From: a virus | IMG/VR virus record: IMGVR_UViG_3300042301_004349 | Span: 1 to 64,000 of that record | DNA length: 64,000 nucleotides | Reading direction: 5' to 3' (one strand) | In this document: positions 15,429 to 52,794 of the stretch, in pieces | Layout of the letters: each line of letters opens with the position of its first letter | How positions within the stretch are numbered: position 1 is the stretch's first letter | Program-made: the position numbers and the translations under genes | Notes under the pieces: model-generated | The model's database searches: none | Told to the model about the DNA's origin: nothing | Seen by the model: only the letters and a program-made list of their open reading frames with translations

Positions 15429-15593
15429 TTATTTAGTTACAGTTGTGTCAGCTGCGACTACAGTTGAGTCAGTTGCTACTGCAGAACTGTCTACTGCTAC
15501 TGCTGTTGAATCAGTTGTAGTTTCAGTTGTTCCTTTACCACCACAAGCTGTCAATACAGCTGCTACTGCGAAAATTGCGATTACTTTTTTCAT
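15429..15593 (-). CDS. Small lipoprotein with Asp-Ser/Thr repeats, 54 aa
   Basis: The signal peptide MKKVIAIFAVAAVLTAC ends in an LTAC lipobox, so it is a predicted lipoprotein. The mature part is GGKG followed by a low-complexity stretch in which DST/DSS/DTT alternates with Ala-Val (DSTAVAVDSSAVATDS). The start at 15593 is chosen over a longer frame because it begins the signal peptide. It lies last in the exported-protein block. Confidence 0.65.
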   Translation of the reverse strand: MKKVIAIFAVAAVLTACGGKGTTETTTDSTAVAVDSSAVATDSTVVAADTTVTK

Positions 15594-15627
15594 TTGTTTG
15601 TTTGTTTGTTTAATAAATTTATTTGAT

Positions 15628-15653
15628 GTAAACGTACGATAAATATTTTGACC
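15628..15653 (-). promoter_or_regulatory. Promoter-like core before the small lipoprotein
   Basis: GTACGTTTAC core preceded 11 bases upstream by GGTCA, a diverged form of the recurrent motif, 34 bases before the ATG at 15593. Confidence 0.4.
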
Positions 15654-15661
15654 GACCAACC

Positions 15662-17017
15662 CTATAATTGAAGTCTTGAACCTATTAGAAAGAAACTTAG
15701 TATTGGAGAGCCAGGTACCGTTGATAAACTGGCTTTATAATCAAGGTTAAATCCAAATCTTTTGCTCAATTTAAGACTATATCCTGTGCCCACCAAACTC
15801 ATTACATTATAATTCCAAGAACTTCCTAACCTACTGTTGTAGGTGTAAGGAGAAGCCATTAAGAACACTCCTGGAGATAAGGTTGATTTTCGGCTTATTT
15901 GATAAGGTTTAGTCCAAAATGCTGTAGCTGAAGACATCATCGAATATGAATAACTGTTTTCTGCTAACTTCAGTTTAATATTGATAATAGATAAGTTATA
16001 CCCGTATGTACCATATTTTGGATGAGGTACAACATGGGTGAAACCACCAAAAGTCATATGTGTACCTGCTACGTAAGCAACGGTATATGAATAGGCATCT
16101 ATTGATTTGAGTGCTCCGTTTTTAAAATTCATTGTGCTTTTATTCGCAGATAAAGCAAATGATTTAAAATCCATCCATATCATACTTGATACACCCCAGC
16201 TAGATTCTCCTGTAACTGATGCTTGAGACATACTTAATGATATGACTGGTGTAAATCCACCAGAAGAATTTTGAGCTACAGTTAAATCAGACCCCAACAT
16301 TATTGGGTTCATTTTAACTTCTTTTTTCTCCTCTTTCTTTTCCTCCTTTTTTTCTTCAGATTTAGACTCTTCTTTCTTTTCCTCTTTAGTTTCTGTTTTT
16401 GTTTCTTCTTTTTTCTCTTCAGTTTTAGTTTCTGTTTTTGATTCGCTGTTTTCGCTTTTGCTTTCTCCAGATGACTTTGATGAAGAGGAAGATCCAGAAG
16501 ATGAAGACGATTGGGATGATGAGGATGAAGATGAGGAAGATGACGATTGGGTAGATGAACCACTCGAAGTTGCTGCTCCTGAAGAAGCTGTTGATGCTCC
16601 TGAGGCTGCGGCTCCAGAAGCTGCTCCACTTGCTGCCCCTGAGGCTGCATTTGACGCGGCTGAACTTGCCGCTGATGATGCTGCTGAGCTTGCTGCTTGA
16701 GATGCGGCTTGTGATACTGTGTTTTGTACTGTCTGTGTTACTACGGGTGCTGCTACGGGACATGCTAATGAATTATAATAGGCGTAAGTTGTCTGGAGCC
16801 ATATTTGTAATTCTCCACTTGCTACTTGGGCGGGAGTAAATGATTTTATTTGCCCATAAAACGATACTATTGAATTTCCATTTACTATGGTAGTAGTAGC
16901 CGTTTTAACTTGACCTGAACATTTGTCAATAAAGGTTTGTGTATAGATTTGCCCTATCGCTTTTTGAGCGAATAGAAATATAACCAATATCAAAAAAGTC
17001 ACTAACCATTTTTTCAT
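15662..17017 (-). CDS. Exported low-complexity protein with C-terminal beta-barrel-like domain
   Basis: Four parts are visible in 451 residues: a Sec signal peptide (MKKWLVTFLILVIFLFAQKAIG), a short N-terminal domain with two Cys (DKCSGQ, SLACPV), a long Ala/Ser/Gly tract (about 105-185, with AASSAASSAASN-type repeats, then poly-Ser), a Lys/Glu tract (about 185-235), and a C-terminal domain of about 210 residues with alternating polar and hydrophobic strands (AYSYTVAYVAGTHMTFGGF), suggesting an outer-membrane barrel. No family is recognised. It follows the lipoprotein gene, after a terminator. Confidence 0.65.
   Translation of the reverse strand: MKKWLVTFLILVIFLFAQKAIGQIYTQTFIDKCSGQVKTATTTIVNGNSIVSFYGQIKSFTPAQVASGELQIWLQTTYAYYNSLACPVAAPVVTQTVQNTVSQAASQAASSAASSAASSAASNAASGAASGAASGAAASGASTASSGAATSSGSSTQSSSSSSSSSSSQSSSSSGSSSSSKSSGESKSENSESKTETKTEEKKEETKTETKEEKKEESKSEEKKEEKKEEKKEVKMNPIMLGSDLTVAQNSSGGFTPVISLSMSQASVTGESSWGVSSMIWMDFKSFALSANKSTMNFKNGALKSIDAYSYTVAYVAGTHMTFGGFTHVVPHPKYGTYGYNLSIINIKLKLAENSYSYSMMSSATAFWTKPYQISRKSTLSPGVFLMASPYTYNSRLGSSWNYNVMSLVGTGYSLKLSKRFGFNLDYKASLSTVPGSPILSFFLIGSRLQL
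16300..16720 (-). repeat. Coding low-complexity tracts (Ala/Ser then Lys/Glu)
   Basis: Tandem variation of GCAGC-type Ser/Ala codons followed by GAAGAAAAG-type Lys/Glu codons within the 451-residue exported protein. The composition is locally very different from neighbouring genes and produces long spurious reading frames on the other strand. Confidence 0.7.
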
Positions 17018-17045
17018 TATTTGTTTCTAGGTTACCTATAAATAT

Positions 17046-17072
17046 AAAAAAAGGGAGTATTACCTCCCTTTT
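17046..17072 (-). terminator. Intrinsic terminator after the beta-helix lipoprotein gene
   Basis: Minus-strand AAGGGAG-GTAATA-CTCCCTT followed by five or more T residues, directly after the stop at 17071. A clear rho-independent form. Confidence 0.8.
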
Positions 17073-18267
17073 AATTTCCTTTAGATGGAAACCTAGTCCA
17101 TCCATTAACCCATATAGGTTTATCTAATTCAGGTATCACCACATCTATCTCTTTATTGCTCTTTGATAGTGCAAGAGTTTTCAATTGGTCATTTGTTAAG
17201 ATTGTAGTTGCTCTACTGATAAAGTTTAGTGTAGGGTTAAATGTTCCTACTGAATTGTTTTCAAATACTGAAGCTCCATCTTTGACGAATTGTGCAGTTT
17301 CATTACTTTCCAAACTTAAACCACCTTTCATCCAACCCCACACAACACTATTCTTCATTGTGAATTGTGTTGCTCTCCTAAATCTCAAACCTAAATTGTG
17401 GTTTGCTAACGCAGTAGACACATTCGGCCCAACTAAAACCATATTGTAAAGTTTTGGATGTGTATAAGGTTGTGCAGATGAGCCTGTTCCATCATTATCA
17501 CATTCTACACCATTTCCAGCATCACCATTATCTACGAATTGTGGGTCTCTCTTTGCTACACCATTTGTAATTGTTCCAGTGTATCCAAAATCAAAATCGA
17601 AATCATCATCTGCAGTAGCAAATGCATATAAGTTTCTAGGTGATACAGTTCCACCAAAGAATTCAAATGCATCATCATTAGCGTAGATAGTTTGAACATT
17701 CTCAATAATTGTACCACTACCAACCCCACCTAATGTTAGTGCGTTGATTTCAGAGTTTGGCATTGCCGCAATACCAGCATATTCAATTCTTACAAAACGA
17801 AGAACACCACTATTATCTAAATCGTTTGTTCCACCATAAGGTCTACCAATACCACCTTCGATTGTTGGTTCTGATGTTCTATTGGTTTTTGCTCTACCCA
17901 ATATTACAATTCCACCCCAATCACCAGGTGCCTTCTCACCATTTGCTCTACCTGATGTAAATACAATTGGTTTTGTTGCAGTTCCTTCCGCAATTATTTG
18001 TGCTCCTCTTTCGATACACAATGCTCCCTTTTCAGCAATATCGGATACAATTGTTGTACCAGGCTGAATGATAAGTTTTGCTCCATCGGTTACATATACA
18101 TAACCTTTCAATGTCCAAACTTTATCCGCAGTTAAAGTTGTTGTTGTATTGATGTTACCGGAAATTGTTGTTGATGTTGGGATGTTAATCGGCCCATCAC
18201 CACCACCCAATTCCTTTTCGCAACCCAATAACCCAAATGCTAAAATAGCTACTAATAGTTTTCTCAT
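17071..18267 (-). CDS. Beta-helix-type lipoprotein paired with the TonB receptor
   Basis: The signal peptide MRKLLVAILAFGLLGC ends in a lipobox, so it is anchored in a membrane, probably the outer one. The mature 380 residues contain repeated strand-turn units (IIQPGTTIVSDI, GALCIERGAQIIAEG, PIVFTSGRANG, LTLGGVGSGTIIENV) typical of right-handed parallel beta-helix proteins, with Asp-rich turns (TADDDFDFDFGYTG). Its ATG overlaps the receptor stop by four bases, so the two are translationally coupled and probably form one complex. It is not a SusD-type protein. Confidence 0.75.
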   Translation of the reverse strand: MRKLLVAILAFGLLGCEKELGGGDGPINIPTSTTISGNINTTTTLTADKVWTLKGYVYVTDGAKLIIQPGTTIVSDIAEKGALCIERGAQIIAEGTATKPIVFTSGRANGEKAPGDWGGIVILGRAKTNRTSEPTIEGGIGRPYGGTNDLDNSGVLRFVRIEYAGIAAMPNSEINALTLGGVGSGTIIENVQTIYANDDAFEFFGGTVSPRNLYAFATADDDFDFDFGYTGTITNGVAKRDPQFVDNGDAGNGVECDNDGTGSSAQPYTHPKLYNMVLVGPNVSTALANHNLGLRFRRATQFTMKNSVVWGWMKGGLSLESNETAQFVKDGASVFENNSVGTFNPTLNFISRATTILTNDQLKTLALSKSNKEIDVVIPELDKPIWVNGWTRFPSKGN

Positions 18268-20741
18268 AGATTCAAATTTAATGTTAATGAAATTGTTTGT
18301 TCGTTGTTTGTTTTTATTAGATTTCGGTTTTGTAACTTTTGATAATAGATTGATGGTTGCGCAAATACATCACCTATTGCCAATTTTAATTCTCCTTTTG
18401 GAAGTTTATGTAAGAATGTAATATCCAATACATCTCTACTATTTTCAAATATATTTGGATAACCCTGAAATCCTACTGCTGATATCCTATCCCCAACCCT
18501 ATTATATGTTATATTAAGAGTTTCATTCTTTTTATGAATGTTCACTCCACTATTTAGCACATAGTTTGATTGTCCCTGCAATTGTCTTTTTACGCCATTC
18601 ACTTCTACTTCGGAATTCATTATTGAAGCGTTTGTGTAAATGTCAAACCAATCATTTATTTTTTTACGGGCTTCCAACTCAACACCATATAGAATAGCTG
18701 AATTAGGGTTTGTGTAAGTTAATAATAGATTTGATGGAACTGAGCCATCAGCTACGATTTGTTCAATTGGTTTAATGAAGTTCTTACCAAATAGAGAAAG
18801 TGAAATGTTTTCACCTGCTTTTGGATACCATTCGTATTTAAGGTCTACATTATATATGTCAGATTTTTCTAACTTTGAGTTTCCTAATATTTGTGCGTTT
18901 CTAACAAAATCATAATAAGCAAAATTAGCTACTTCTCTAAACTCTGGTCTTGCTAATGTTTTACTTAATGAAAATCTATACTTTGTTTTTTCTTCGTTGT
19001 GTGAAAGGTTTATAGATGGTAATATATCCAAATACTCTCTATCTACATTTACTTTCTGTCCACTAAAATCTGCGGTTGATACATCGAATAAATTATACTC
19101 ACCTCTTAATCCAGTGTTTAATTTCCATTTACCAAATTCGGTATCATACATTGTATATAACGAACCCAAATCAAAATCAGCAGTATATCTATCAGTATTG
19201 TTTGTTATCTCATCTAACATATCAGTTGATAAGTTACGAAATATTCTAGCATTAAATCCTCTGATTCTTTTTAAGTATCCACCACCTACTTTAATATCTC
19301 CAAATTGTTTGTTGATGTTACCATTAAAAGAGTTCTCATCCATTACACTCCAAAAACGATATGTATCTCTCCACGCAGTTTGGTATGGTTCATCTACCCC
19401 CAATGATTTTGTAATTGGATTAACTCTATAATCGGGTTGTTCTCTGAAGGTGTATGTGTATCCTACATTGAAATCTAATGTTTTAACCTTACCATCTAAT
19501 TGAGAACTGATTATAACATTGTTGATATGATTTGATGCAGTAGATAAAACATTTTGCACATTATCAAAGTTATCACCAGTACGAGTTAGGTATGTATCAT
19601 CTGTTTGGTAGTTCACTAATGTTTTCCAGCTATATCTATTCTCACCCAAATAGGTTAAATTGAATAAACCATTTGTTGAAAATCGTTTTGTGAATAGAAC
19701 ATCTTTGTAATCGTATGCCAATTCGGTTGATGATTGATAATCCTTTCTATCAATGTTATTTATTGTGAATGAGTTCCTTACGGTAGAACTGAATAAAGAG
19801 TTCCATTTTCCTTTAACATACCCAAATGATAACCCTCCATTTAAATTCTGGGTGGATTGGATTGTTTCAGTTGATGGATTATTAAATAATTTGGTGTAAG
19901 CTCTCTTATCACCATTACCACTAATTCGGTATTTGTATGTGGACGGGAATGTGGAGGGGAAATCGGTAGCTTGAACTAACTTAAAATCTCTAAAAGTTGA
20001 AACCGAACCCCAACCACTTCCCGATGATATATTGAAAAAGTTATCGGATACTTCTTTTGTTGTTATTTGAACCAACCCACCACTCCAATCACCTGGCTGA
20101 TTTGCCGATGCTGATTTGGAGACTATAATGTTATCAATTAATGATGTTGGGATTATATCAAATGAAAATGCTCTCCTATCAGGTTCGGTTGATGGTAATT
20201 GTGTTTTATTTAGTAGAGCTGAATTGTATCTATCTGCTAATCCTCTTACTAATACAAACTTATCGTTTTGTATAGTTACCCCACTTACTCTTTTAAGTGC
20301 ATCACCAACATTTCTATCGGGAGTTTTCTTAATAAAATCAATTGATAATCCATCTGATACAACATTACTATTTCGTATTGTTCTTACAACTGCGGCTTCG
20401 GTTACCTTTTGAGAAACACTTCTTACAACAACTTCGGATAGTTGTTTTGCATCATCAGGAAATACAATATCAAATTCAGTGTCCTTATCAAATACTACTT
20501 CATTTGTATATTCAGTATATCCAACAAATGTAGATTTAATTTGGTATTTTCCTTCTTTTAATACGATAGAGTATTTCCCATCAGTATCTGATATTGTTGT
20601 GAAAATATCACCAGTTTGGTTTTTAAAAGAAATGTGAGAAAAGTAAAGTGTTTCCGATTTGGATTTTGTAACACCTTTGATTGTTACTTGCGAAAATAAT
20701 AGATTCGGCAAAAGTAACAATAGTAAAAAGAAACGATTCAT
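18264..20741 (-). CDS. TonB-dependent outer-membrane receptor
   Basis: Predicted energy-dependent import channel of the outer membrane. The order is: signal peptide (MNRFFLLLLLLPNLLFSQ), a carboxypeptidase-regulatory-like beta domain (about 20-105, with SDTDGKYSIVLKEGKYQI), a plug domain (about 110-240, with RNVGDALKRVSGVTI, LVRGLADRYNSALL and GDWSGGLVQITTKE), then a barrel of about 580 residues with many aromatic beta-strands. The length of 825 residues is typical. An ATG nine bases upstream is an alternative start. The substrate is unknown. An intact receptor of this kind on a phage is unusual. Confidence 0.9.
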   Translation of the reverse strand: MNRFFLLLLLLPNLLFSQVTIKGVTKSKSETLYFSHISFKNQTGDIFTTISDTDGKYSIVLKEGKYQIKSTFVGYTEYTNEVVFDKDTEFDIVFPDDAKQLSEVVVRSVSQKVTEAAVVRTIRNSNVVSDGLSIDFIKKTPDRNVGDALKRVSGVTIQNDKFVLVRGLADRYNSALLNKTQLPSTEPDRRAFSFDIIPTSLIDNIIVSKSASANQPGDWSGGLVQITTKEVSDNFFNISSGSGWGSVSTFRDFKLVQATDFPSTFPSTYKYRISGNGDKRAYTKLFNNPSTETIQSTQNLNGGLSFGYVKGKWNSLFSSTVRNSFTINNIDRKDYQSSTELAYDYKDVLFTKRFSTNGLFNLTYLGENRYSWKTLVNYQTDDTYLTRTGDNFDNVQNVLSTASNHINNVIISSQLDGKVKTLDFNVGYTYTFREQPDYRVNPITKSLGVDEPYQTAWRDTYRFWSVMDENSFNGNINKQFGDIKVGGGYLKRIRGFNARIFRNLSTDMLDEITNNTDRYTADFDLGSLYTMYDTEFGKWKLNTGLRGEYNLFDVSTADFSGQKVNVDREYLDILPSINLSHNEEKTKYRFSLSKTLARPEFREVANFAYYDFVRNAQILGNSKLEKSDIYNVDLKYEWYPKAGENISLSLFGKNFIKPIEQIVADGSVPSNLLLTYTNPNSAILYGVELEARKKINDWFDIYTNASIMNSEVEVNGVKRQLQGQSNYVLNSGVNIHKKNETLNITYNRVGDRISAVGFQGYPNIFENSRDVLDITFLHKLPKGELKLAIGDVFAQPSIYYQKLQNRNLIKTNNEQTISLTLNLNL

Positions 20742-20834
20742 AATTATCAAGTTAGTTCCCTAATAATTATAAATCGTTATTGTATTTTAATAGACTTTTA
20801 TATTAACAAATTATTAAGCTATTATGAACTAATA

Positions 20835-21551
20835 TTAATTTGGAAATATACCTTTTTTAACCATTCTATCTAAAATTCTAGCACAAGCAATATCTAGTGC
20901 TTTTTTAGTTGCTATAGAAATAGTTGATTGATTAAATTTCATTTCATCTACAGTTGCATCAGACAGGAATGTTAATTCTCTAGTTGTGGTTGCTTCACCT
21001 AACCCACTAGCAGCAAATACAACACCAGTTTCTGCATTGGTAAATCGAACTTGTAAACCTAAACGAGTTACCATCATATTCTTAACACCATCTTTAAGGT
21101 TGATGGTTTCATCTTCAGATACTGAGTAGTCATAACATTCAATTGTTACGAAGTACTCTGCTAGGTTAATTTTACCTCTACCATCTAATGGATTTTCAGC
21201 TATACCTGCTTGTGATGCTTGGAATTGCTTAACCATTCGGTTCTTAATCTCCGTTTTATCTTCGGTAAATTTGAAACGATTAAGGTTTTCTAGATATTCC
21301 ATTGAAATGTTAGCTACACCCAAACCTACTCTCTTTTCCTTTAATTCAGGGTACATTTCATACATTTCATCACTAATACCTGCTTTTAAGATTTGAATAG
21401 GAATTTGCTTACCTTCATAATCCATGAAGCGAGAAATATCAATTGCTGTTTCAAATGATGCTTTGTATTGTTCAGTTTTTGTTGAACCTACGTTTTGGGC
21501 ACTAACATTTATAGTTAGTAATAAACCCAATAATATTAATAAATTTTTCAT
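20835..21551 (-). CDS. Exported CsgG-like protein, 238 aa
   Basis: Signal peptide MKNLLILLGLLLTINVSAQ without a lipobox. The mature protein has the pattern of the CsgG/curli-assembly fold: RVGLGVANIS, AEYFVTIECYDYS, LGLQVRFTNAETG, then a C-terminal helix (FNQSTISIATKKALDIACAR). CsgG proteins form or regulate outer-membrane secretion pores, but lack of a lipidation Cys argues against a direct CsgG role. The 27490-28140 protein ends in a similar motif. The family call is moderate. Confidence 0.5.
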   Translation of the reverse strand: MKNLLILLGLLLTINVSAQNVGSTKTEQYKASFETAIDISRFMDYEGKQIPIQILKAGISDEMYEMYPELKEKRVGLGVANISMEYLENLNRFKFTEDKTEIKNRMVKQFQASQAGIAENPLDGRGKINLAEYFVTIECYDYSVSEDETINLKDGVKNMMVTRLGLQVRFTNAETGVVFAASGLGEATTTRELTFLSDATVDEMKFNQSTISIATKKALDIACARILDRMVKKGIFPN

Positions 21552-21565
21552 ATATAAATTAAGTT

Positions 21566-21588
21566 TAAAAAGGGAACCGAAGTTCCCT
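21566..21588 (-). terminator. Intrinsic terminator with TTCG loop
   Basis: Minus-strand AGGGAAC-TTCG-GTTCCCT followed by TTTTAAAC, just after the stop of the gene ending at 21594. The stable UUCG-type tetraloop makes this a confident call. Confidence 0.8.
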
Positions 21589-21593
21589 CTTAA

Positions 21594-21842
21594 TTAAGCT
21601 TCTGTGTTATCTTTCTTTTTATGAGAGAATTTATCAAATGTATCTGCACCCATTCCTATACCTGTAATAATCATTACGGCATTTACTAACTCTGCTGATG
21701 GAGCAAAATCGGCATGTGAAAATGAGTTTAACATCATTGTAATACATAAGAACATAGCTCCTACAAATGCAATAACTGGTTTTACTGAAGTCGATCCTCT
21801 TTCATCTTTGAATAGATCGATAACCCATTGTTTGAAGTTCAT
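21594..21842 (-). CDS. Small two-helix membrane protein, holin-like, 82 aa
   Basis: A short amphipathic N-terminus (MNFKQWVIDLFKDERGS), then two hydrophobic segments (VIAFVGAMFLCITMMLNSF and LVNAVMIITGIGMGADTF) and a charged C-terminus. This size and topology are typical of phage holins, but holins cannot be identified by sequence alone. It lies next to a second two-helix membrane protein. Confidence 0.5.
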   Translation of the reverse strand: MNFKQWVIDLFKDERGSTSVKPVIAFVGAMFLCITMMLNSFSHADFAPSAELVNAVMIITGIGMGADTFDKFSHKKKDNTEA

Positions 21843-21860
21843 ACTTTTAATTTTTAATGG

Positions 21861-22469
21861 TTAGTGAGATTCGTCGTAAGCGTCTTTTAATAGACCACAT
21901 TTTTGACACTCTAATTCTCCGTCATTATCTGAGTCGCCCCAAACATGTTCGCAGTATCTATGTGCTTTCATTTCGTGTTCTAATTTTAATTTAGCCATTT
22001 CTTGTTCATGTTCCTGAGCATCTTTAGCCATTGCTTGATCGTGTTCTTGTTGATCAGCGGCTAATTCGTGATTTTGTTTGTTTTCAACTACAGCTAAATC
22101 TCTAGCTGCTGCTGCACCTGCTACAAATGCATCTGGGATTAATGGGGTGAGTGGCTTGTTGGTTTCTTTCATATCATTAGTATGACCTAAAGTAACACCA
22201 TCTTCCTCATCCATTTTTTGTACTAACATTTTATCTTTGTCAGTATCGCTGAACCAGTAATCAATAATTTTACCATAACTACCAATGAAGGCACCTAACA
22301 ATAACATTAATAATTCTTTCCATGCTGCGGCCATTGGTGTTTGTCCCACAACAGCAGCAAAAATACCTGCTATTATCAAAATAAACCCACCTAATACCAT
22401 TGCTGTGATGTACCATCTTCTGGACATCATCTTGTTTAATAATTCTTTAAATCCTGTGTTTGGTTGCAT
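21861..22469 (-). CDS. Membrane protein with coiled coil and C-terminal zinc-knuckle-like tail
   Basis: Two transmembrane segments near the N-terminus (ITAMVLGGFILIIAGIFAAV and LLMLLLGAFIGSYGKIID) are followed by a long His/Glu/Gln coiled coil (NKQNHELAADQQEHDQAMAK) and a tail with CEHVWGDSD and CQKCGL that could bind a metal. The hairpin topology resembles a holin or anchor. No exact family is recognised. It is probably in the inner membrane with the coiled coil in one aqueous compartment. Confidence 0.5.
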   Translation of the reverse strand: MQPNTGFKELLNKMMSRRWYITAMVLGGFILIIAGIFAAVVGQTPMAAAWKELLMLLLGAFIGSYGKIIDYWFSDTDKDKMLVQKMDEEDGVTLGHTNDMKETNKPLTPLIPDAFVAGAAAARDLAVVENKQNHELAADQQEHDQAMAKDAQEHEQEMAKLKLEHEMKAHRYCEHVWGDSDNDGELECQKCGLLKDAYDESH

Positions 22470-22488
22470 ACTTAATTTTGTTTATAGG

Positions 22489-22809
22489 TTACCACTTTGG
22501 TGCTTCTTCTTTAAATTCATCACCTTCTTTTTTCTTTTCAGGCTTAGCTGCGGGTTGAGCTGCTGGTTTTTCAATTACTTTTTCTCTAATCACAGTAGTT
22601 CCACCACCTGCTGATTGAGACTGTTGATTCGAGTTTTGAATGTTGATTACTGGAGCGGCTTGTTGTACTGGAGCTGGTTCATCACCACCTGTTAATTGGG
22701 TTACTCCCCAAGTACCTAAACCCATAATTGCTGTTGTAGCAACACCAATAATGGTTTTCTTTAATCCGGATAAAGTTCCGTCATTTGCATTTTCTACTTC
22801 TTCTGACAT
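22489..22809 (-). CDS. Membrane-anchored Pro/Ala/Lys-rich protein, 106 aa
   Basis: A short acidic N-terminus, one hydrophobic segment (IIGVATTAIMGLGTWGV), then a Gln/Ser-rich part (NIQNSNQQSQSAGGG) and a Pro-Ala-Lys tail (EKPAAQPAAKPEKKK). The tail resembles periplasm-spanning linkers such as those of TonB-like proteins, but no TonB C-terminal domain is present. Function unknown. Confidence 0.5.
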   Translation of the reverse strand: MSEEVENANDGTLSGLKKTIIGVATTAIMGLGTWGVTQLTGGDEPAPVQQAAPVINIQNSNQQSQSAGGGTTVIREKVIEKPAAQPAAKPEKKKEGDEFKEEAPKW

Positions 22810-22820
22810 TTTATTTAAAT

Positions 22821-23198
22821 TTATAGTTTGTTAAAGTCTGTTATTCCTAATTGTATTCCTTTAGAATCATATAATCCAATTCTATAAGCCGATGATGGTA
22901 ATGCTGATGTATATACCTTTAGTATATTATCACCTGCTTTTGCATTTATCGTCTCTTTTGATACAACTCTATTAGAAATATCAAAAATCTTAATTGTAAC
23001 TGGTTGAGCGGTTTCTAATTTAACATTCATAGCAACTTCAGTTGTTACGAATGCCGATTCTAATTTAAGTCCAACCGCATTTTGTATTTGTAGTTCTTTC
23101 TTAACTTCTACAATGGGCTCAATCAAATCATCTTTATAACATCCAGATAACAATGTTGTTACTAATACTATTGTAAGTATTCTTTTCATCGTGTTCAT
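22821..23198 (-). CDS. Lipoprotein resembling a T9SS sorting-tail domain, 125 aa
   Basis: The N-terminus (MKRILTIVLVTTLLSGC, second Met) is a lipoprotein signal. Residues from about 50 form a beta-sandwich pattern (VTIKIFDISNRVVSKETINA, then DNILKVYTSALPSSAYRI) like the C-terminal sorting domain of type IX secretion substrates, but here it is nearly the whole protein. The next upstream gene encodes a related protein. Function unknown; perhaps an anchor or adaptor for the larger exported proteins. Confidence 0.5.
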   Translation of the reverse strand: MNTMKRILTIVLVTTLLSGCYKDDLIEPIVEVKKELQIQNAVGLKLESAFVTTEVAMNVKLETAQPVTIKIFDISNRVVSKETINAKAGDNILKVYTSALPSSAYRIGLYDSKGIQLGITDFNKL

Positions 23199-23200
23199 TT

Positions 23201-23545
23201 TTAATTAATTTTAATGGTTGTTTTAGCTATTTGAGTTTTAGACCCATCTTCTAATACTAAGTATAAATATTGGGGTTGTATCGAACTCGTGTAAATTTTC
23301 TTTATGTTTTCACCCGTTTTACCATTGAACCTTTCTCTACTAATGACTTGGTCATTTACTTTATCAATTAAGGTTAATGTATAAATACCGTTTGATGGTA
23401 AATCAAAATATATAGATTGCCCATCAGTTACTAGGCTTTCAGACACACTAAATATCTTTTGTACAGGTGGTGGTGTTGGTTCAATTTCCATTTTGGTACA
23501 TCCCCACAATAACACCACAAATATGAATACTATTTTTTTCATCAT
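23201..23545 (-). CDS. Second T9SS-tail-like lipoprotein, 114 aa
   Basis: Signal peptide KKIVFIFVVLLWGC with a lipobox Cys, then a Pro-rich linker and a beta domain (GIYTLTLIDKVNDQVISRER, GENIKKIYTSSIQPQYLYLV) closely similar in pattern to its downstream neighbour (both have G-E/D-N-I-x-K-x-Y-T-S). The two look like a tandem duplication that has diverged. It overlaps the lectin-domain gene by four bases. Confidence 0.5.
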   Translation of the reverse strand: MMKKIVFIFVVLLWGCTKMEIEPTPPPVQKIFSVSESLVTDGQSIYFDLPSNGIYTLTLIDKVNDQVISRERFNGKTGENIKKIYTSSIQPQYLYLVLEDGSKTQIAKTTIKIN

Positions 23546-25836
23546 TTGATTTTTACTTTTAATTGCCTACCAGCTTTATTAACCGCATCCGTTGTTGATA
23601 TAGATGTTAACCCTAATATATCAGTTATGTTGTTTATTGAGGTGAATATAATTTTATATTCTGTTGTTTTATCTAATATATCTCCACTTGTTATTAAAGA
23701 GCCTATATTAATAAAATTACCTCTATCAGTTCCAAAATTAGTAGGATTACCCTTTGTAGTAAATTCTACTTTTTCAAATTTTAATTTAGTATTATCATAA
23801 TTTAATTTAAATTGTGTTCCAACTAACTCTTGCTGTAATGGATCTACTGATAGTGTGATTATGACTTTGTTATTTATTAATTCTCCCATAGCTATTACAT
23901 TTATTTCATTTGTAATAGAATTATTCACCATACTCATACTTCTAATCGAATTACTACCCATATTGTTTATGCTTTGCTGAGCTGAATGGGATAGATTTAC
24001 ATCACCTAACCAAGTTACACTTATATTGTATGTGTTATTTAATCCACTCAATGTAAATGGTATTAGATTGCGAGTTGAATTAAATTGAGTACCCCAATTT
24101 GATGTTGTTATAGCATCATAGTCTGATTTATTATATAGCTTTAACAAATTAGTTAACGATGTTGATTGTGTTAATGATTGAGTACCTGTTAGGTGTTGTA
24201 AGAGTTTGTATGTATCACTTTCGTTGAATATACCATTACCATCTACATCTGCATTTAGATATTGTATACCATTTGTTAATCCCATACCACTTTGATTTCC
24301 AAATAACCCACCATCAGCTAATTCTTTAAATGCTAAATATACATCTGATACACCAACTATATTATTATATAATGTATTTAGTTCTGTTTGATTTGAATGT
24401 ATTAATTCTATTCCGTGTGGTTTATATACCATTATTGGTGAGAAAGAAAACTCCGATTGTAATCCCCAAAAGAACCCAGCTCGTCTTATATTAGCCGTAA
24501 ATGATGAACCTGCGAAATTAAATTCGGTTGGTGTAGAAATCCAATATGCTGCCCAAGTACCATCATCCCACTGATATGTTACAGGCCCATCCCATAAATC
24601 AAATAATTTTAAATGTGTAACATTGTTTGAAGAGATATTTGTACCTGCAAACTCTCTTTTATCAATTAGAATTTGGTATCGTTGGTTTTGGGGTTCATAA
24701 TCATATACTACACACCACTCAACTTGTCCAGCGCTTGTATTTGCTCTAACTCCCCCACTACTAACTCTAGCCGTATCTAATAAGGTTGTCAAATCCACTT
24801 TACCTAATCCACTTAATTGTCTAGCAGTTCCGTTTACTACATTCCAGTTATTATTTGTAAATGTATATCCTTTTGCTGTAAATTTAGTTTCATCTACATT
24901 AGTTCCAAAATCAATATTGAATGATGCCCTTAATACTTCTCCGTTTGAATGAGTTACACTATTAGTATAGAATTCAGTAAATGTTGCATCATCAGGATTA
25001 GTCCAAGTTCCATATTCAATTACATAAGGATTGGACCAATTATTTGATAAATCGTTCCAACTTGATACCCCATTCCATTTTGCCACTGCATAGTTCTCAC
25101 TACCATTACTACCATTTGGTTCACCAGGTGCCCAGTTATTATATACACCAGGAATATTTCCATTAGTTTGTCCATTTTGGGTTTTCATTGTTATACCCTT
25201 TTCAGGCCCAGCATCAATTTTCCAAGTCCCATCAACAACCTCATCGGTTGCCGCAAACCATACATTTGTTGCAGGAACATTAGCAAATATAAAAGCATCT
25301 TCGGAAGCTGATGTTATTGTTACTAGATAACCTTGCTGTCCTTTGAATGTAGTTAATAATGATCTAGATCTTGCGTTTGTATATGTGGTTCTTTCATTAG
25401 TTGCAGTTATAGGTCTATAAAAGTGTCCATTCACACCATTGTAAAAATAACCAACGGGATTTACAGTTGCTGCTACTGATAATTGAACATTACCAACTAT
25501 CGAACCTGTGTTTATTTTTAATGATGCTAATGCAGTATTAATATCTGCCATTGTTCCCAATACCACCAAACGAGTTTTATTACCTGATAGAGTAAATCCA
25601 CTTGCAGCAATTAATCCTCTCGTTTCATTAAGATAAAATGTAGTATTTGTTGATGGATTTATTAAACTGATTGATGCTAATAAAGTAGATGTTGCACTAA
25701 ATCCACTTAATACGAATCCACTACCATCTTGTCCGTTTGTAGATGGTATAAAAGATTTAGAGTCCGGAGCAGATACACTCTGTCCGAACCCTAAAAATGA
25801 TATAAATAAAAATAATGTAACTAATAAGTGTTTCAT
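23542..25836 (-). CDS. Large exported protein with C-type lectin, dockerin-like and cohesin-like parts
   Basis: Signal peptide (MKHLLVTLFLFISFLGFGQS), then about 100 residues of Ser/Thr-rich strands. A C-type lectin domain lies at about 130-275, with YLVTITSASEDAFIF, WFAATDEVVDGTW, NWAPGEPNG (the EPN calcium/sugar motif) and SSWNDLS. An EF-hand/dockerin-like repeat follows at about 527-552 (NADVDGNGIFNESDTYKLLQ). The last 125 residues resemble a cohesin (GTQFKLNYDNTKLKFEKVEF). The domain order suggests sugar or surface binding plus self-assembly with the next protein. Virion fibre or cell-surface adhesin are both possible. Confidence 0.7.
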   Translation of the reverse strand: MKHLLVTLFLFISFLGFGQSVSAPDSKSFIPSTNGQDGSGFVLSGFSATSTLLASISLINPSTNTTFYLNETRGLIAASGFTLSGNKTRLVVLGTMADINTALASLKINTGSIVGNVQLSVAATVNPVGYFYNGVNGHFYRPITATNERTTYTNARSRSLLTTFKGQQGYLVTITSASEDAFIFANVPATNVWFAATDEVVDGTWKIDAGPEKGITMKTQNGQTNGNIPGVYNNWAPGEPNGSNGSENYAVAKWNGVSSWNDLSNNWSNPYVIEYGTWTNPDDATFTEFYTNSVTHSNGEVLRASFNIDFGTNVDETKFTAKGYTFTNNNWNVVNGTARQLSGLGKVDLTTLLDTARVSSGGVRANTSAGQVEWCVVYDYEPQNQRYQILIDKREFAGTNISSNNVTHLKLFDLWDGPVTYQWDDGTWAAYWISTPTEFNFAGSSFTANIRRAGFFWGLQSEFSFSPIMVYKPHGIELIHSNQTELNTLYNNIVGVSDVYLAFKELADGGLFGNQSGMGLTNGIQYLNADVDGNGIFNESDTYKLLQHLTGTQSLTQSTSLTNLLKLYNKSDYDAITTSNWGTQFNSTRNLIPFTLSGLNNTYNISVTWLGDVNLSHSAQQSINNMGSNSIRSMSMVNNSITNEINVIAMGELINNKVIITLSVDPLQQELVGTQFKLNYDNTKLKFEKVEFTTKGNPTNFGTDRGNFINIGSLITSGDILDKTTEYKIIFTSINNITDILGLTSISTTDAVNKAGRQLKVKIK

Positions 25837-27485
25837 TATTCTATGATTAAGTCTATTTTGTTTCCTTTAGCATCTACTGCATCTGATAAAATAAAGAAGA
25901 ATAAACCTGCTGTATTTGTTAAAGTTGTCTTTGGTGTGAATATTAATTTGTATGGAGTACCAACTTTGATTCTTGCTGTTTTTAATTGATCAATAGAACC
26001 AAATGTTAATCTACCACTATTGTGTGTTGAGAAGTTAGTAATTGTGCTTCCAGCATCAAATATAATATTATCTAATGTTAATTTAGATTCATCATAATTC
26101 ATTATAACTTGCAAACCAGCTAATTCTGCTTTAGTTAAAGTTGTAGTTAATATAACTTTACCATTTTCTAAAGTAGACGTTACACTTAATTTAGCAGTTT
26201 CTACAGCTTCTGTTTGATAAGCCATTATAGATGGTACACTCATAGATCTTTTTAAATTCACTTCACCATTGATTGAGTTAGTATACAAACCACTACTGAT
26301 TCTAGTTGCAATTACTGCAGGATCTGATGAATGTGACCAGTTTAAATCACCACCCCATGCAAATACAGCATGAACTTCTTTTATTGGAGTATCAATTAAA
26401 ACTTTATTCTTAACTACCCCATCCAACCAACTTTGGTTTAATAAACCACTCTGCCATCTTACTGATGTTGAGGTTGATGTTGGGATAGAGGCAATAGTTG
26501 ACATATTTTGTCCCATTACATGAGCAAATAAAGCATAGGAATCGGATTCATTAAATACATTATCATTTAATGTTACGTTACCAACTTTAGTTTCTAAATT
26601 AGGATAAGTGAAGAAATTTGGTGTACCCCCAATATCAGTTTGTGAATGACCTAAGAAGGCTTTATATGCGTCTGATACAGTTACGATATTGTTCATCCAA
26701 GCTTTAGTCATTGTTGGTCCTACGAATACACCAACTGAGTCTCCAACTTTAACTTGTGTTGTAAATAATGCTTCACCACTACCATCTAATGGTAATTGGG
26801 CAATTGGTTGTTGTGCCCAATCAATAGTTCCATCAACTTTTAATTTCATTAACTGGACATTGTGGTCAGTAATAGTATATCCTTGTGGGAATAATACTTT
26901 AACTTTAAATTGCGATGTATTACCAGTTACGTTTGTTAATGATAAATTTGTAGCACTACGAGTAATAGGTGTAATGTTAGCAGAAGCATCATTAACGGCA
27001 TAAGCTAAATCTAATTTATGGATATCGTTATAAGTGTTCTGGTCTTTCAATACAAATTTTTGAGTTGCTATATCACCATTGATTGAAGCATCAGTTCTTT
27101 GAACTGTTAATTGTCCAACATTCCAATCGTTGTTTACTGCATATCCCCAAGGAGTAGCTTGATATTGTCCAGATAAACTAGTAACAGCAACATTTGCTGT
27201 TGGAGTGAATGCGTAGTTATTCCAACCTGTAAAGAATGTTTGGACTGATGTTCCTTGTGAGAACACCGTACTATTTGGTACCATAGCTAAAGCCTTATTA
27301 TTGAATGAATATCTCATCCAAAAATAACGAGGTGTTGTTGTACCTCTAGCTATTGTGTATTTTACAGTTAAGGTATCACCAACCTGATAAGGTGGGGCTG
27401 GTGTTACAGATTGTGATACGGAAATTTGACTAAATGATGTTAAAGATGTTAGGAATATTCCTAAAAATAATAATAATTTTTTCAT
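25836..27485 (-). CDS. Exported protein with dockerin-like and cohesin-like parts
   Basis: Signal peptide MKKLLLFLGIFLTSLTSFSQ; this start is preferred to an ATG 15 bases upstream that would overlap the previous gene. After an N-terminal beta domain (VGDTLTVKYTIARGTTTPRY) it has a dockerin-like segment at about 302-325 (NVTLNDNVFNESDSYALFAH) and a C-terminal cohesin-like domain (LAGLQVIMNYDESKLTLDNI) at about 425-549. The same pair of modules, in the same order, occurs in the next gene, which overlaps it by one base. It is likely a partner or paralogue. Confidence 0.65.
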   Translation of the reverse strand: MKKLLLFLGIFLTSLTSFSQISVSQSVTPAPPYQVGDTLTVKYTIARGTTTPRYFWMRYSFNNKALAMVPNSTVFSQGTSVQTFFTGWNNYAFTPTANVAVTSLSGQYQATPWGYAVNNDWNVGQLTVQRTDASINGDIATQKFVLKDQNTYNDIHKLDLAYAVNDASANITPITRSATNLSLTNVTGNTSQFKVKVLFPQGYTITDHNVQLMKLKVDGTIDWAQQPIAQLPLDGSGEALFTTQVKVGDSVGVFVGPTMTKAWMNNIVTVSDAYKAFLGHSQTDIGGTPNFFTYPNLETKVGNVTLNDNVFNESDSYALFAHVMGQNMSTIASIPTSTSTSVRWQSGLLNQSWLDGVVKNKVLIDTPIKEVHAVFAWGGDLNWSHSSDPAVIATRISSGLYTNSINGEVNLKRSMSVPSIMAYQTEAVETAKLSVTSTLENGKVILTTTLTKAELAGLQVIMNYDESKLTLDNIIFDAGSTITNFSTHNSGRLTFGSIDQLKTARIKVGTPYKLIFTPKTTLTNTAGLFFFILSDAVDAKGNKIDLIIE

Positions 27486-27489
27486 AATG

Positions 27490-28140
27490 TTATTTTTCAA
27501 ATAATTTTGTGACTAATTTATCACAACCTTTTTTGAGAGCATTACTTAGTGAAGTTTGGTTGAATTTACCACCTTCATCCACAAGTAAAGTAGACATTGA
27601 AATTTCAGATGAAGATTCTTCAACAATTATTTCTTTTTCTTTTATCCCATCTTTATATAGGATTCCTTTTAAACGAATGATTACTTCTTCTTCACCTTTA
27701 TGAAAAACTGAAATGTTTTTCTTGGTAGTTAGTACATCTAGATAAATAATTTCAACACGTAATTTATTTTCAGCCTCTGATGATATATTGTATCCTTTAT
27801 CTTGTAAATATTCTTCTAATACGTTTTTAACGCCAAATTCTAAATTACGGTTACCTGCTAATTTACCAACAACTACTTTGTTAGTAACTTTTTCAACATA
27901 GATATGTTCATCTGCGTTGTACCAAATGTTACCTGGGGAGTTTTTGAATGTACCGTCGATTTTATGACTAATTGCATTAGACATTTGTAAATTTTCTTCA
28001 TAAGATTTAAAGAAGTGGCTATATACAAAATATAATTGTACGAATAATGCCGCTATTACAAATGATCCTAGTAAGTATAACACACCTTGCGCAAACACAT
28101 CACGCAGATTGGTGGCCAGGGTAATGGCTTTTTGTTTCAT
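27490..28140 (-). CDS. Membrane-anchored protein with CsgG-like C-terminus, 216 aa
   Basis: A transmembrane segment lies at about residues 17-37 (GVLYLLGSFVIAALFVQLYF), then an exported domain beginning with a coiled stretch. The C-terminal part (NKLRVEIIYLDVLTTKKNIS, then FNQTSLSNALKKGCDKLVTK) shares the FNQ-x-S/T-x-S-x-A-x-K-K motif with the 20835-21551 protein. The first gene of the exported-protein block after the RNA cluster terminator. Function unknown. Confidence 0.5.
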   Translation of the reverse strand: MKQKAITLATNLRDVFAQGVLYLLGSFVIAALFVQLYFVYSHFFKSYEENLQMSNAISHKIDGTFKNSPGNIWYNADEHIYVEKVTNKVVVGKLAGNRNLEFGVKNVLEEYLQDKGYNISSEAENKLRVEIIYLDVLTTKKNISVFHKGEEEVIIRLKGILYKDGIKEKEIIVEESSSEISMSTLLVDEGGKFNQTSLSNALKKGCDKLVTKLFEK

Positions 28141-28208: not shown

Positions 28209-28217
28209 AGCAAATTG

Positions 28218-28594
28218 TGGAGGTGAAGGGAGTCGAACCCTTGTCCAAATACGGATTTAATAAATCTCGTTCACAAGCTTAGTTCGTTTTTCTAAACTGA
28301 ACAAAATATTCGGTTGGTTCTTCACCATCGGCAACCGATAAACAATGGGTGATTCGATTTCGGGTTCAATCACTTTTCCACCTTGGTACACATTCTATTT
28401 TAAGTCCCACGATGTGTGCGGGAGGGATTAGGCAGCTACTGCGTAATCAGCACCAACGAATGCCATAGCATCTTCGAAGGTCATTGTAGATAATTCTACG
28501 TCATTTATTGTTCGATAGGTATTTACGGATTTCCATCTAACCCGGCTTGCATCAACTCACCAACTCATCGCACCTGTCAAAACCAGGCACCCCC
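28218..28594 (-). ncRNA. ssrA: Transfer-messenger RNA (tmRNA)
   Basis: Rescues stalled ribosomes by trans-translation. The 5' end GGGGGTG pairs with the 3' CACCTCC, and a TTCGACTC-type T-arm precedes the 3' end. The 5' end reads GGGGGTGCCTGGTTTTGACA, the conserved tmRNA start. The tag frame ends ...AFVGADYAVAA followed by TAA at 28428-28430, like the YALAA-type degradation tags of bacteria. The CCA end is not encoded (the discriminator A is followed by CAA), so the host must add it. About 377 bases, normal for the family. It has its own terminator. Confidence 0.92.
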
Positions 28595-28599
28595 ATATG

Positions 28600-28917
28600 T
28601 TAAATAACTTCTGCTTTTCTATTTCGTTTCTTACCCTCTAATATTTTATGAACATCAGCACACAGTTCATATTCTTCTAACTTGATTAAATCATCCATAC
28701 AATTTTTTAATAATTCTTTGTATTGTGATTTTTCAATATTAAATATCATACCACTTGTATCCTTGAATGTGATATCAAATATATCAATCCCGTCTTTATT
28801 TCGTTTATGTGCGCTGAGTACGCATTTAACCATTTTAAGAATTAGATCACTATCTCTATCCTTCATCATTTGAAGGAATTGATGATGATCCTTTAACATT
28901 AAACAGTGACATGCCAT
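28600..28917 (-). CDS. Unknown protein with UVR-like C-terminal helix pair, 105 aa
   Basis: Start MACHCLML at 28917 (an ATG at 28899 is also possible). The middle is mixed, and the C-terminus (LIKLEEYELCADVHKILEGK) resembles the UVR motif, an alpha-hairpin used for protein-protein contact. The 31730-32029 protein ends in a similar helix. It lies just upstream of the tmRNA. Confidence 0.5.
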   Translation of the reverse strand: MACHCLMLKDHHQFLQMMKDRDSDLILKMVKCVLSAHKRNKDGIDIFDITFKDTSGMIFNIEKSQYKELLKNCMDDLIKLEEYELCADVHKILEGKKRNRKAEVI

Positions 28918-29038
28918 AACAATAAATATTAGATACACTGTCTGTACTGTTAAACTGTCTCAATACTACCTTTATCGTAGCAGAGGTTTTCTTCATTCTT
29001 AGCGTCCGTCCAGTCCTTCTTTCGAAGCAGTGTATTTG

Positions 29039-29122
29039 TACCAGGAGCGGGAATCGAACCCGCACTCGCGTTGGCGAACAAGATTTTAAGTCTTGCGTGT
29101 CTACCTATTCCACCACCCCGGC
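29039..29122 (-). tRNA. tRNA-Leu (UAA)
   Basis: 84 bases with the long variable arm expected of tRNA-Leu. The anticodon loop is CTTAAAA, giving anticodon UAA for the codon UUA. The acceptor stem has three G-U pairs. The T-arm GCGGG-TTCGATT-CCCGC is perfect. CCA is not encoded. Confidence 0.93.
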
Positions 29123-29163
29123 ATATGCAACTTTTAAACCACCCAATGAGTTGCCAACATATG

Positions 29164-29322
29164 CTGTAGGGGAAGGATTCGAACCTCCACGCGGCGATTC
29201 GATAAATGACATTTTTGCTAGCTAGCCTGTGGTCAACCCATTATCATTTATCTGTCTCGAACTCCGCACCCTCGAGACGGGAGGGTATGTCTGCCAAGCG
29301 TACGCCTTTTCACCACCCTACA
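29164..29322 (-). ncRNA. Interrupted or degenerate tRNA-like element, 159 bases
   Basis: The ends are tRNA-like: TGTAGGG pairs perfectly with CCCTACA, and the T-arm GGAGG-TTCGAAT-CCTTC is good. A D-arm-like GTGA...ACGC is also present. No proper anticodon arm can be found. Instead about 90 bases hold a 9-bp stem (GATAAATGA/TCATTTATC) and two mutually exclusive stems sharing CTCGAG (ACCCTC/GAGGGT and GTCTCGA/TCGAGAC). It may be a tRNA with an intron, a decayed double tRNA, or a tRNA-like RNA. Confidence 0.55.
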
Positions 29323-29325
29323 ATT

Positions 29326-29553
29326 CTAGTTAATTCTTGTTTGATTACGTCTTACTTCTTCTGCTTCTTTATAAACTCTAACCCAAGTTAAAAATACATC
29401 AACAGGAGCTAAAATCCAACACATAATAATTAGAGCTAGACTTTCAAGACCTGGTGATATTCCTAGACCACCAGACATGACATCTCTGTTCCATTTTTTA
29501 ATAGACATTACAATGCAGTAAAAAAAGCAAGTAAGGTAATAAATCCAAAACAT
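29326..29553 (-). CDS. Small membrane protein, 75 aa
   Basis: Two hydrophobic segments (FWIYYLTCFFYCIVM and SLALIIMCWILAPVDVFL) and a basic C-terminus. No family is recognised. It lies between tRNA genes and is two bases after the preceding stop. Confidence 0.5.
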   Translation of the reverse strand: MFWIYYLTCFFYCIVMSIKKWNRDVMSGGLGISPGLESLALIIMCWILAPVDVFLTWVRVYKEAEEVRRNQTRIN

Positions 29554-29555
29554 AA

Positions 29556-29765
29556 CTATTGTTTAAAGTGTTTTTCAAGTGCTTCAATCTTATCTTCAGC
29601 ATCAACTAACATTTGTAATGCTTCTTCAGCATTGTTATAAAAGTCTTTTGTTGAATGATCTCCGATCCCAGCAGCATGGTTAGATAATAAATCTAGAGAT
29701 AGTAGTGCTTTTGTTTTTTCAGCAACTGCCGAAGCCATAAGCATGTCATATAATTCTTTTTTCAT
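29556..29765 (-). CDS. Unknown helical protein, 69 aa
   Basis: All-alpha with a His-Asp-rich loop (NHAAGIGDHSTKDFYNNAEE) and a C-terminal coiled coil. No family is recognised. Confidence 0.5.
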   Translation of the reverse strand: MKKELYDMLMASAVAEKTKALLSLDLLSNHAAGIGDHSTKDFYNNAEEALQMLVDAEDKIEALEKHFKQ

Positions 29766-29845
29766 ATATTGTTAATTTACACTTTTCTTTTTGCCCATCC
29801 AACATCTTTTTAAATTTTTTATTATGTCAAATAAACGTTGGCACG

Positions 29846-29919
29846 TGGGCCTGGTAGGAATCGAACCTACTACCTTCACATTATGAGTGTGCCGCTCTAA
29901 CCGATTGAGCTACAGGTCC
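29846..29919 (-). tRNA. tRNA-Met or tRNA-Ile2 (CAU)
   Basis: 74 bases. The anticodon loop is CTCATAA, giving CAU. The acceptor stem has an A-C mismatch at the third pair. It lacks features that would mark an initiator, but a lysidine-modified Ile tRNA reading AUA cannot be excluded. CCA is not encoded. Confidence 0.88.
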
Positions 29920-29925
29920 TTGTTG

Positions 29926-29997
29926 AGCTCCCACTCGGAATCGAACCAAGTTATCGTGATTACAAGTCACGCGCATCGCCAGCAATGCTTTAGGAGC
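29926..29997 (-). tRNA. tRNA-Thr (UGU)
   Basis: 72 bases. The anticodon stem CGTGA/TCACG encloses CTTGTAA, giving UGU for ACA codons. The acceptor stem GCTCCTA/TGGGAGC has one G-U pair. CCA is not encoded. Confidence 0.93.
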
Positions 29998-30004
29998 ATT
30001 AATG

Positions 30005-30076
30005 GGTGTAAGGACGGTATCGAACCGTCTTATCGAGCTCCACAAACTCGCGCTTCACCTTAAAGCTTCAGACACC
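30005..30076 (-). tRNA. tRNA-His (GUG)
   Basis: The anticodon stem CGAGT/GCTCG encloses TTGTGGA, giving GUG. It has the extra G at -1 facing C73, the identity mark of tRNA-His. The acceptor stem has two mismatches (U-U and C-U), so function may be weakened. Confidence 0.9.
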
Positions 30077-30087
30077 ATGTATTTTAG

Positions 30088-30159
30088 TACTCAGTACGGG
30101 ATTCGAACCCGTATTACATCCGTGAAAGGGATGTGACCTAGCCCTTAGTCGAACTGAGC
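30088..30159 (-). tRNA. tRNA-Glu (UUC)
   Basis: 72 bases. The anticodon stem CATCC/GGATG encloses CTTTCAC, giving UUC. The acceptor GCTCAGT/ACTGAGT has a G-U first pair. The T-arm is perfect. CCA is not encoded. Confidence 0.93.
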
Positions 30160-34624: not shown

Positions 34625-34804
34625 TTATTTTGTTGTTGTGACATTTAAACCTAATTTATCTAATTCAATTATATAAGTGTTAGGTTCATCATTTATTTTA
34701 GATAGTTCTTCTTTTAATAGATCCCATTGCTTAGGAGTTGGTTGATATTCATGACAAGCCTCAACAAATCCTTTCAACCAGATTATAAATTCTTTACTTG
34801 TCAT
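34625..34804 (-). CDS. Unknown small phage protein, 59 aa
   Basis: MTSKEFIIWLKGFVEACHEY followed by PTPKQWDLLKEELSKI is a pattern I associate with a widespread uncharacterised phage protein. It is helical. The start at 34804 limits overlap with the upstream glycosyltransferase to 11 bases. Confidence 0.6.
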   Translation of the reverse strand: MTSKEFIIWLKGFVEACHEYQPTPKQWDLLKEELSKINDEPNTYIIELDKLGLNVTTTK

Positions 34805-36047: not shown

Positions 36048-36049
36048 AA

Positions 36050-42778: not shown

Positions 42779-42781
42779 AGT

Positions 42782-43072
42782 TTATTTTTCTAATACAATT
42801 AACAAATCTGTTTCCTTCATAATAATATATTCCACATCATCAACAGTAACCTTGTTACCCCCGAATGAAGGAAATACCACAACATCTCCTACCTTAAGTG
42901 TTGTTGGAACAAAAGCCCCTGTTTCTGTTGCCCTACCAGGACCAATTTCCACAATCTCACCTTGTAGTGGTTTTTCTTTACCTAAGTCAGCAACAACAAT
43001 ATTGCCATACTTTTGTTCTTGATTTTCATCTTGTTTAATCACAACGTGATTATGTAATGCTTTTATTTTCAT
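42782..43072 (-). CDS. groS: GroES co-chaperonin
   Basis: 96 residues with the GroES pattern: IKALHNHVVIKQDENQE at the N-terminus, GEIVEIGPGRATE, the mobile-loop region, then KVGDVVVFPSFGGNKV and the C-terminal strand. It caps GroEL. It starts 58 bases after the Hsp20 stop codon and ends four bases before groEL. Confidence 0.95.
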   Translation of the reverse strand: MKIKALHNHVVIKQDENQEQKYGNIVVADLGKEKPLQGEIVEIGPGRATETGAFVPTTLKVGDVVVFPSFGGNKVTVDDVEYIIMKETDLLIVLEK

Positions 43073-52522: not shown

Positions 52523-52552
52523 AGATAATTTTTATTTGTTTGGGATTGTATT

Positions 52553-52585
52553 TATTTATTAAACGCTTACTCCCGTTTAAGCGTT
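52553..52585 (-). terminator. Hairpin after the 70-residue gene
   Basis: Minus-strand AACGCTTA-AACGGGAG-TAAGCGTT followed by TAATAAAT. The stem spans the stop codon at 52577. A terminator with a weak T-tract. Confidence 0.55.
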
Positions 52586-52789: not shown

Positions 52790-52794
52790 AACTT

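Follow-up and report, generated by a model that had tools for sequence, protein, structure and literature searches.

A putative PhoB-controlled cassette for phosphorus uptake at the outer membrane, carried by T4-like phages of Bacteroidota

In Flavobacterium johnsoniae, Fjoh_0545 and Fjoh_0546 lie in the phoBR operon and rise by log2 fold changes of 8.0 and 9.9 under phosphate depletion; the first encodes a TonB-dependent receptor (TBDT) with three Pfam domains and the second, beside it, a lipoprotein of beta-helix fold (Lidbury et al., PMC8115612). This pair (PUSIV, lipoprotein FII), together with Fjoh_3857/Fjoh_3856 (PUSIII, lipoprotein FI), is the nearest known system to the locus described here. 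Induction of such a pair by phosphate depletion has been published for F. johnsoniae only, and loci of its Pho-regulon set are repressed under nitrogen and iron limitation (PMC8115612). ElpS of Caulobacter is likewise a surface lipoprotein of phosphate starvation (PMC2996285) and is said to be related to FI and FII (PMC8115612); we liken it to the lipoprotein of our locus by description, although ElpS, unlike the latter, is released from the cell with the T2SS (PMC2996285). The SusC/SusD glycan importers also join a receptor to a lipoprotein, which in our locus is a predicted beta-helix and not a SusD.

Phage DNA is rich in phosphorus, and many waters are poor in it. Cyanophage pstS and other phage genes were reportedly found to be under host PhoB by Zeng and Chisholm in 2012. 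The phosphate-stress genes of cyanophages are driven by the host PhoBR (PMC10976474). Such pstS-type genes answer the same phosphate problem at steps that lie within the cyanobacterial outer membrane, whereas the pair described here would be an outer-membrane, TonB-dependent system of Bacteroidota-type phages. A survey of phage phosphorus auxiliary genes lists pstSCAB, phoD, ppa, ugpQ, pit and phoR/B/U; neither TonB nor porin appears as a term in its text, and none of the genes it lists serves uptake at the outer membrane (PMC10987575). We found no paper on phage-encoded TonB receptors in the open-access literature. Phosphorus auxiliary genes of phages are thus already known, and the new aspect would be a phosphorus system of phages that is placed at the outer membrane and dependent on TonB.

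The locus compared with these systems is a pair of genes, g10 and g11, in the window, by which we mean the whole analysed stretch of 64,000 nucleotides, taken from positions 1-64000 of a virus record of 171,171 bp (33.6% GC):

g10, 18264..20741, minus strand: predicted TonB-dependent receptor with a CarboxypepD_reg-like N-terminal extension, a plug and an OMP_b-brl_3 barrel
g11, 17071..18267, minus strand: predicted right-handed beta-helix lipoprotein with lipobox LLGC, then CEKEL; its start overlaps the g10 stop
Pho-box-like direct repeat TTAATA-ATTTG-TTAATA, 20801..20817, minus strand: 76 nt upstream of the g10 ATG

The likely start of g10 is ATG 20741 and not TTG 20750. Judged by published description, the pair resembles those of F. 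johnsoniae in its receptor Pfam trio, in the adjacent lipoprotein of beta-helix fold and in its putative phosphate control. All three domains (PF07715, PF13715 and PF14905; Plug, CarbopepD_reg_2 and OMP_b-brl_3) pass the Pfam cut-off in g10, with OMP_b-brl_3 at 2e-25, and the TonB-dependent receptor named in an original prediction for this DNA therefore rests on a solid match. The N-terminal extension is absent from many phage receptors (L024, L025, L029, L039, L042 and others), in which the signal peptide runs straight into the part near query residue 85. The coupled beta-helix lipoprotein of the same prediction is supported in g11 by the lipobox, by strong conservation of the family and by a right-handed beta-helix obtained with an AlphaFold2 model and Foldseek, the fold models of g11 and of g09 being of middling confidence. 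Its CEKEL after the cysteine is a motif that presumably resembles known surface-export signals. A Pfam search with g11 gave no SusD match; PDB sequence searches found no similar solved structure for g10 and nothing useful for g11 or g09. In all 69 viral loci long and complete enough to judge, the lipoprotein comes directly after the receptor and starts at its stop, with a 4-nt overlap in 65 and a 2-nt gap in 4. Unlike the F. johnsoniae pairs, this one is carried by phages and has a TTAATA-type box in the window. Moreover, many bacterial pairs have phosphate genes in their locus, whereas the viral flanks of the cassette, searched for PitA and phosphatases, hold no homologue of either, so that for the inner membrane the phage seems to depend on transport by the host.

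The exported block and its parts

The interval 15429-28140 is filled by thirteen consecutive minus-strand ORFs, numbered from g01 (27490-28140) down to g13 (15429-15659), and lies beside a tmRNA, as had been predicted. A simple hydrophobicity test over all genes of the 171,171-bp record called a hydrophobic segment at the N terminus, or a membrane segment, in 12 of the 13 block genes against 27 of the 205 others (Fisher p=2.5e-9), which bears out the claim that nearly all are exported or membrane proteins; indeed, the 13-gene stretch richest in such signals in the whole genome falls within the block. Besides g10 and g11, the features are:

tmRNA, 28217..28594, minus strand: called by ARAGORN; immediately upstream of the block, flanking g01
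g01, 27490..28140, minus strand: predicted membrane-anchored Lipoprotein_16 (YajG-like; Pfam 3.7e-6), core; homologue of immuto gp19
g02, 25836..27500, minus strand: predicted exported, dockerin/cohesin-like; C-terminal half akin to g03 (blastp E 4e-16)
g03, 23542..25836, minus strand: predicted exported C-type lectin (Lectin_C 1.9e-5), also cohesin-like, core; immuto gp13
g04 and g05, 22821..23545, minus strand: small lipoproteins akin to each other; likeness to Por_Secre_tail/DUF3244 lies under the cut-off
g06, g07 and g08, 21594..22809, minus strand: small membrane proteins, possibly holin-type; g06 has a homologue in immuto gp16
g09, 20835..21551, minus strand: predicted exported, CsgG-like fold, core; immuto gp17 (51%)
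g12, 15662..17017, minus strand: predicted exported, Ser/Lys/Glu-rich, C terminus barrel-like by eye, core; immuto gp18
g13, 15429..15659, minus strand: small lipoprotein with lipobox LTAC

Several of the predicted protein types stand in part. Of the two CsgG-like proteins, g09 is supported by fold, its AlphaFold2 model (pLDDT 68) matching CsgG in Foldseek with E 2.4e-6, probability 1.0 and a TM of about 0.4; g09 shares this predicted fold with the curli pore CsgG but has neither a lipobox nor a Pfam CsgG match, and no curli genes were seen. The other, g01, is not supported as CsgG-like and matches Lipoprotein_16 in Pfam. Among the dockerin/cohesin-like proteins with a lectin, the C-type lectin of g03 stands, since its Lectin_C match passes the Pfam cut-off, and a profile search with g03 matched C-type lectins in the PDB; the cohesin match (0.01) lies under the cut-off. 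The two T9SS-tail-like lipoproteins, g04 and g05, are small lipoproteins indeed, with a T9SS tail match (0.014) that likewise lies under the Pfam cut-off.

The record carries a gp23-type major head protein, a portal, TerL and tail fibres at ~88-125 kb, outside the block, and by these hallmark genes it is a genuine T4-like phage. Flavobacterium phage immuto is the closest match for its chaperonin and many of its replication genes, and 210 of the 218 called genes of the record lie on the minus strand. The original prediction had set its exported proteins against virion structural components, and the identified virion module does lie elsewhere; with signal peptides present as well, a virion role for g10 and g11 was judged unlikely; a look for proteomics on this point found none. 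The phage tmRNA encodes its own tag peptide, and five tRNA genes adjoin it (28217-30159). GroEL and GroES are encoded at 41150-43072 and two related, adjacent glycosyltransferases at 34794-37504. Homologues of FolE, QueC, DpdA and QueD of immuto lie at 48801-49433, 51647-53580 and 53850-54311, a set that suggests a 7-deazaguanine DNA modification pathway in the phage.

Judged by the gene content of relatives, the block is two units, namely a widespread core (g01-g09 and g12) and an accessory cassette, g10-g11, that sits between g09 and g12 as an insertion. The search for viral relatives of g09 gave at least 499; the best 80 of these have g12 in 78 cases, g06 in 73, g03 in 65 and g10-g11 in 5, and of the 50 with enough flank on both sides, 45 have no copy of the pair near g09. 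Immuto has homologues of g01, g03, g06, g09 and g12 and, in its genome, no homologue of the receptor. The spacing between g09 and g12 has a median of 31 bp without the pair, against 4454 bp with the pair inserted (two loci). Thus, because the core is usually present without the pair, we regard g10-g11 as an accessory cassette at this position. In a 326-kb jumbo record (L037 and L241, one contig), g10-g11 and g09 lie tens of kilobases apart, which is another sign that cassette and g09 are independent. The same gene order, when sought in relatives, is kept, and by these comparisons the core is a widespread, conserved exported/membrane module of T4-like phages related to immuto, which (g12 and g09-g01; 15662-17017 and 20835-28140) could serve in lysis or egress. 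One coordinated programme of surface remodelling, as originally proposed for all thirteen genes, does not agree with these data: g10-g11 is separable, with ~46 different signatures of flanking genes around its viral copies, and within the block a Pho box precedes this unit alone, none of the other genes having one consistently. Of the three functions originally put forward, the uptake of nutrients has good support in the case of two genes out of thirteen, g10 and g11.

Spread, kinship and upstream repeat of the pair

A total of 112 viral relatives of g10 were found, the best 80 of which share 64-94% identity. Of 35 records with the cassette, 16 also have strong T4-like genes for TerL and/or capsid, the capsids falling into two size classes; many of the other records are fragments. 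Contamination by bacterial DNA was rejected, as records with the cassette have hallmark genes of T4-like phages as well. By its setting, away from the virion genes of a true phage, the cassette is a set of phage auxiliary genes. The two genes are under strong purifying selection (dN/dS 0.065-0.135 for g10 and 0.067-0.168 for g11). A search of a phage collection for g10 and g11 gave weak copies and none that is close. The weak ones occur in short faecal records that have no annotation and are perhaps not phage, and in a huge phage of 634 kb from a metagenome (LR745206.1, L161:7455-11295), whose distant receptor/beta-helix pair stands in reverse order and has no good Pho box.

A scan of 84,980 species genomes gave one strong bacterial match, Aquirufa antheringensis (receptor 63%, lipoprotein 72%). 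In a maximum-likelihood tree, 40 phage receptors group with that of Aquirufa in a single, fully supported clade (SH-aLRT), which stands apart from 32 other paired Bacteroidota receptors. The original prediction had counted a very recent insertion against itself; the codon use of g10 and g11 is mildly atypical (8th and 13th lowest of 111 genes in codon likelihood), yet the tree, within the receptors sampled, shows an old phage lineage rather than such an insertion. After the pair, the Aquirufa locus continues with genes for a phosphatase-like protein, PitA, a phosphonate HD oxygenase, an alkaline phosphatase and a PhnX-like hydrolase. More widely, the lipoprotein is present in 186 of 396 genomes of the bacterial class, and 40 bacterial loci contain 24 pairs with the order and strand of receptor then lipoprotein. 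The neighbours in 36 bacterial loci are led by OmpR-type response regulators with PhoB as the top family, PhoB being the best match for 6 of 10 neighbours checked singly, though these matches stay under the cut-off curated for TIGR02154; the neighbours further include PitA, PhoU_div and a porin selective for phosphate (Porin_O_P). Many bacterial copies have no phosphate genes nearby, so that such neighbours are not strictly defining for the pair.

The box of the Bacteroidota pairs is a direct repeat, TTAACA-N5-TTAACA, upstream of the receptor, which we take to be similar to the Bacillus PhoP box. A box score of at least 10 is reached by 17 of 24 bacterial pairs, against 24 of 355 other genes of the same regions (p=2.5e-13) and 1 of 30 other receptors of the same Pfam family (p=1e-7), while pstS of the same class, the positive control, has the box in 15 of 30. 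By these comparisons the repeat appears to behave as a Bacteroidota Pho box. The main test on phages used a matrix from bacterial sites only, which replaced a hand-weighted score whose tolerance of T at position 5 was set after seeing phage sequences. Of 52 phage receptor promoters in a non-redundant set, 20 score at least 9 with this matrix, while the other intergenic upstream regions of the same contigs do so in 4 of 344 cases (p=4e-16); the tests are not fully independent, since the phage upstream regions are related. About half of the phage receptors are without a significant box (24/53 at p<0.05), and many phage boxes are spaced 73-88 nt before the start codon. The Pho box thus holds for the phage receptors as a group, and the window copy is a weaker variant with T for C in both halves (TTAATA against TTAACA). 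With the post hoc, T-tolerant hand-set weights it ranks 1st of 217 upstream regions and is the only site of at least 11.2 in the 171-kb genome; with the bacteria-derived matrix it ranks 5th of 217. Shuffling gave p=0.005.

A proposed phosphorus importer and its alternatives

We propose, with a probability of roughly three in four, that g10-g11 is an outer-membrane phosphorus-uptake cassette run by host PhoB. It also seems likely, in wider terms, that T4-like phages of Bacteroidota carry a mobile, coupled TonB-dependent transporter and lipoprotein under host PhoB as their own phosphorus importer for the infected cell. From the pairing, coupling, mobility and selection described above, the kinship to a Pho-boxed bacterial pair beside PhoB and phosphate genes and the repeat in phages, we infer the remaining steps, namely that PhoB binds, that the genes are expressed, that the proteins lie at the surface, and what they transport, as follows. 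In a phosphate-starved cell, host PhoR/PhoB would be active, and PhoB might bind the direct repeat at 20801-20817 and switch on the coupled genes. Both proteins would be exported by Sec; g11 would be lipidated and may cap or assist g10 in the outer membrane, at the cell surface. Powered by host TonB-ExbBD, g10 might then import phosphate or a phosphorus ester, and host Pst/Pit would complete the uptake and supply phosphorus for phage DNA synthesis.

The pair might instead serve a nutrient other than phosphorus, for example a glycan or a siderophore, the repeat being the site of another regulator. Beta-helix folds are typical of polysaccharide-active proteins, g03 nearby encodes a C-type lectin and the receptor family of g10 serves many ligands. 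We nevertheless consider this improbable, given that g11 is not a SusD, that the box precedes pstS in the same bacterial class and other receptors rarely, and that the similarly built F. johnsoniae pair responds to phosphate depletion while loci of its set are repressed when nitrogen or iron is limiting (PMC8115612). Less probable again is superinfection exclusion, in which g10-g11 would replace or occlude a host outer-membrane receptor used by competing phages. Phages do alter TonB-dependent receptors, as Cor does with FhuA (PMC11436027), and the neighbouring block genes are also exported. Exclusion would not lead one to expect a full-length receptor, a coupled partner, a Pho-type promoter or kinship to phosphate loci. 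Moreover, the exclusion factors of the Cor kind that we know of are small proteins blocking the host receptor, not whole receptors, so that full-length g10 fits exclusion less well. That the pair is functionless passenger DNA lately acquired from the host, as its mildly atypical codons and its close kin in Aquirufa might hint, is very unlikely with 40 phage copies and one bacterium in a single clade, many contexts, records of two capsid size classes and a dN/dS that already contradicts it.

To conclude, our results favor host-controlled phosphorus uptake by g10-g11 and offer concrete targets, namely a 17-bp candidate operator and two genes. TTAACA-N5-TTAACA, with pstS as positive control, is suggested as a usable Pho-box motif for Bacteroidota. 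If the proposed reading is true, the cassette would represent a class of auxiliary genes absent from the phosphorus-gene survey (PMC10987575) and from the literature found, and an uncharacterised Pho-regulon lipoprotein family would be tied to phage fitness. The phosphate strategy of the cyanophage type would then extend to polysaccharide-degrading Bacteroidota and to the first barrier of the cell.
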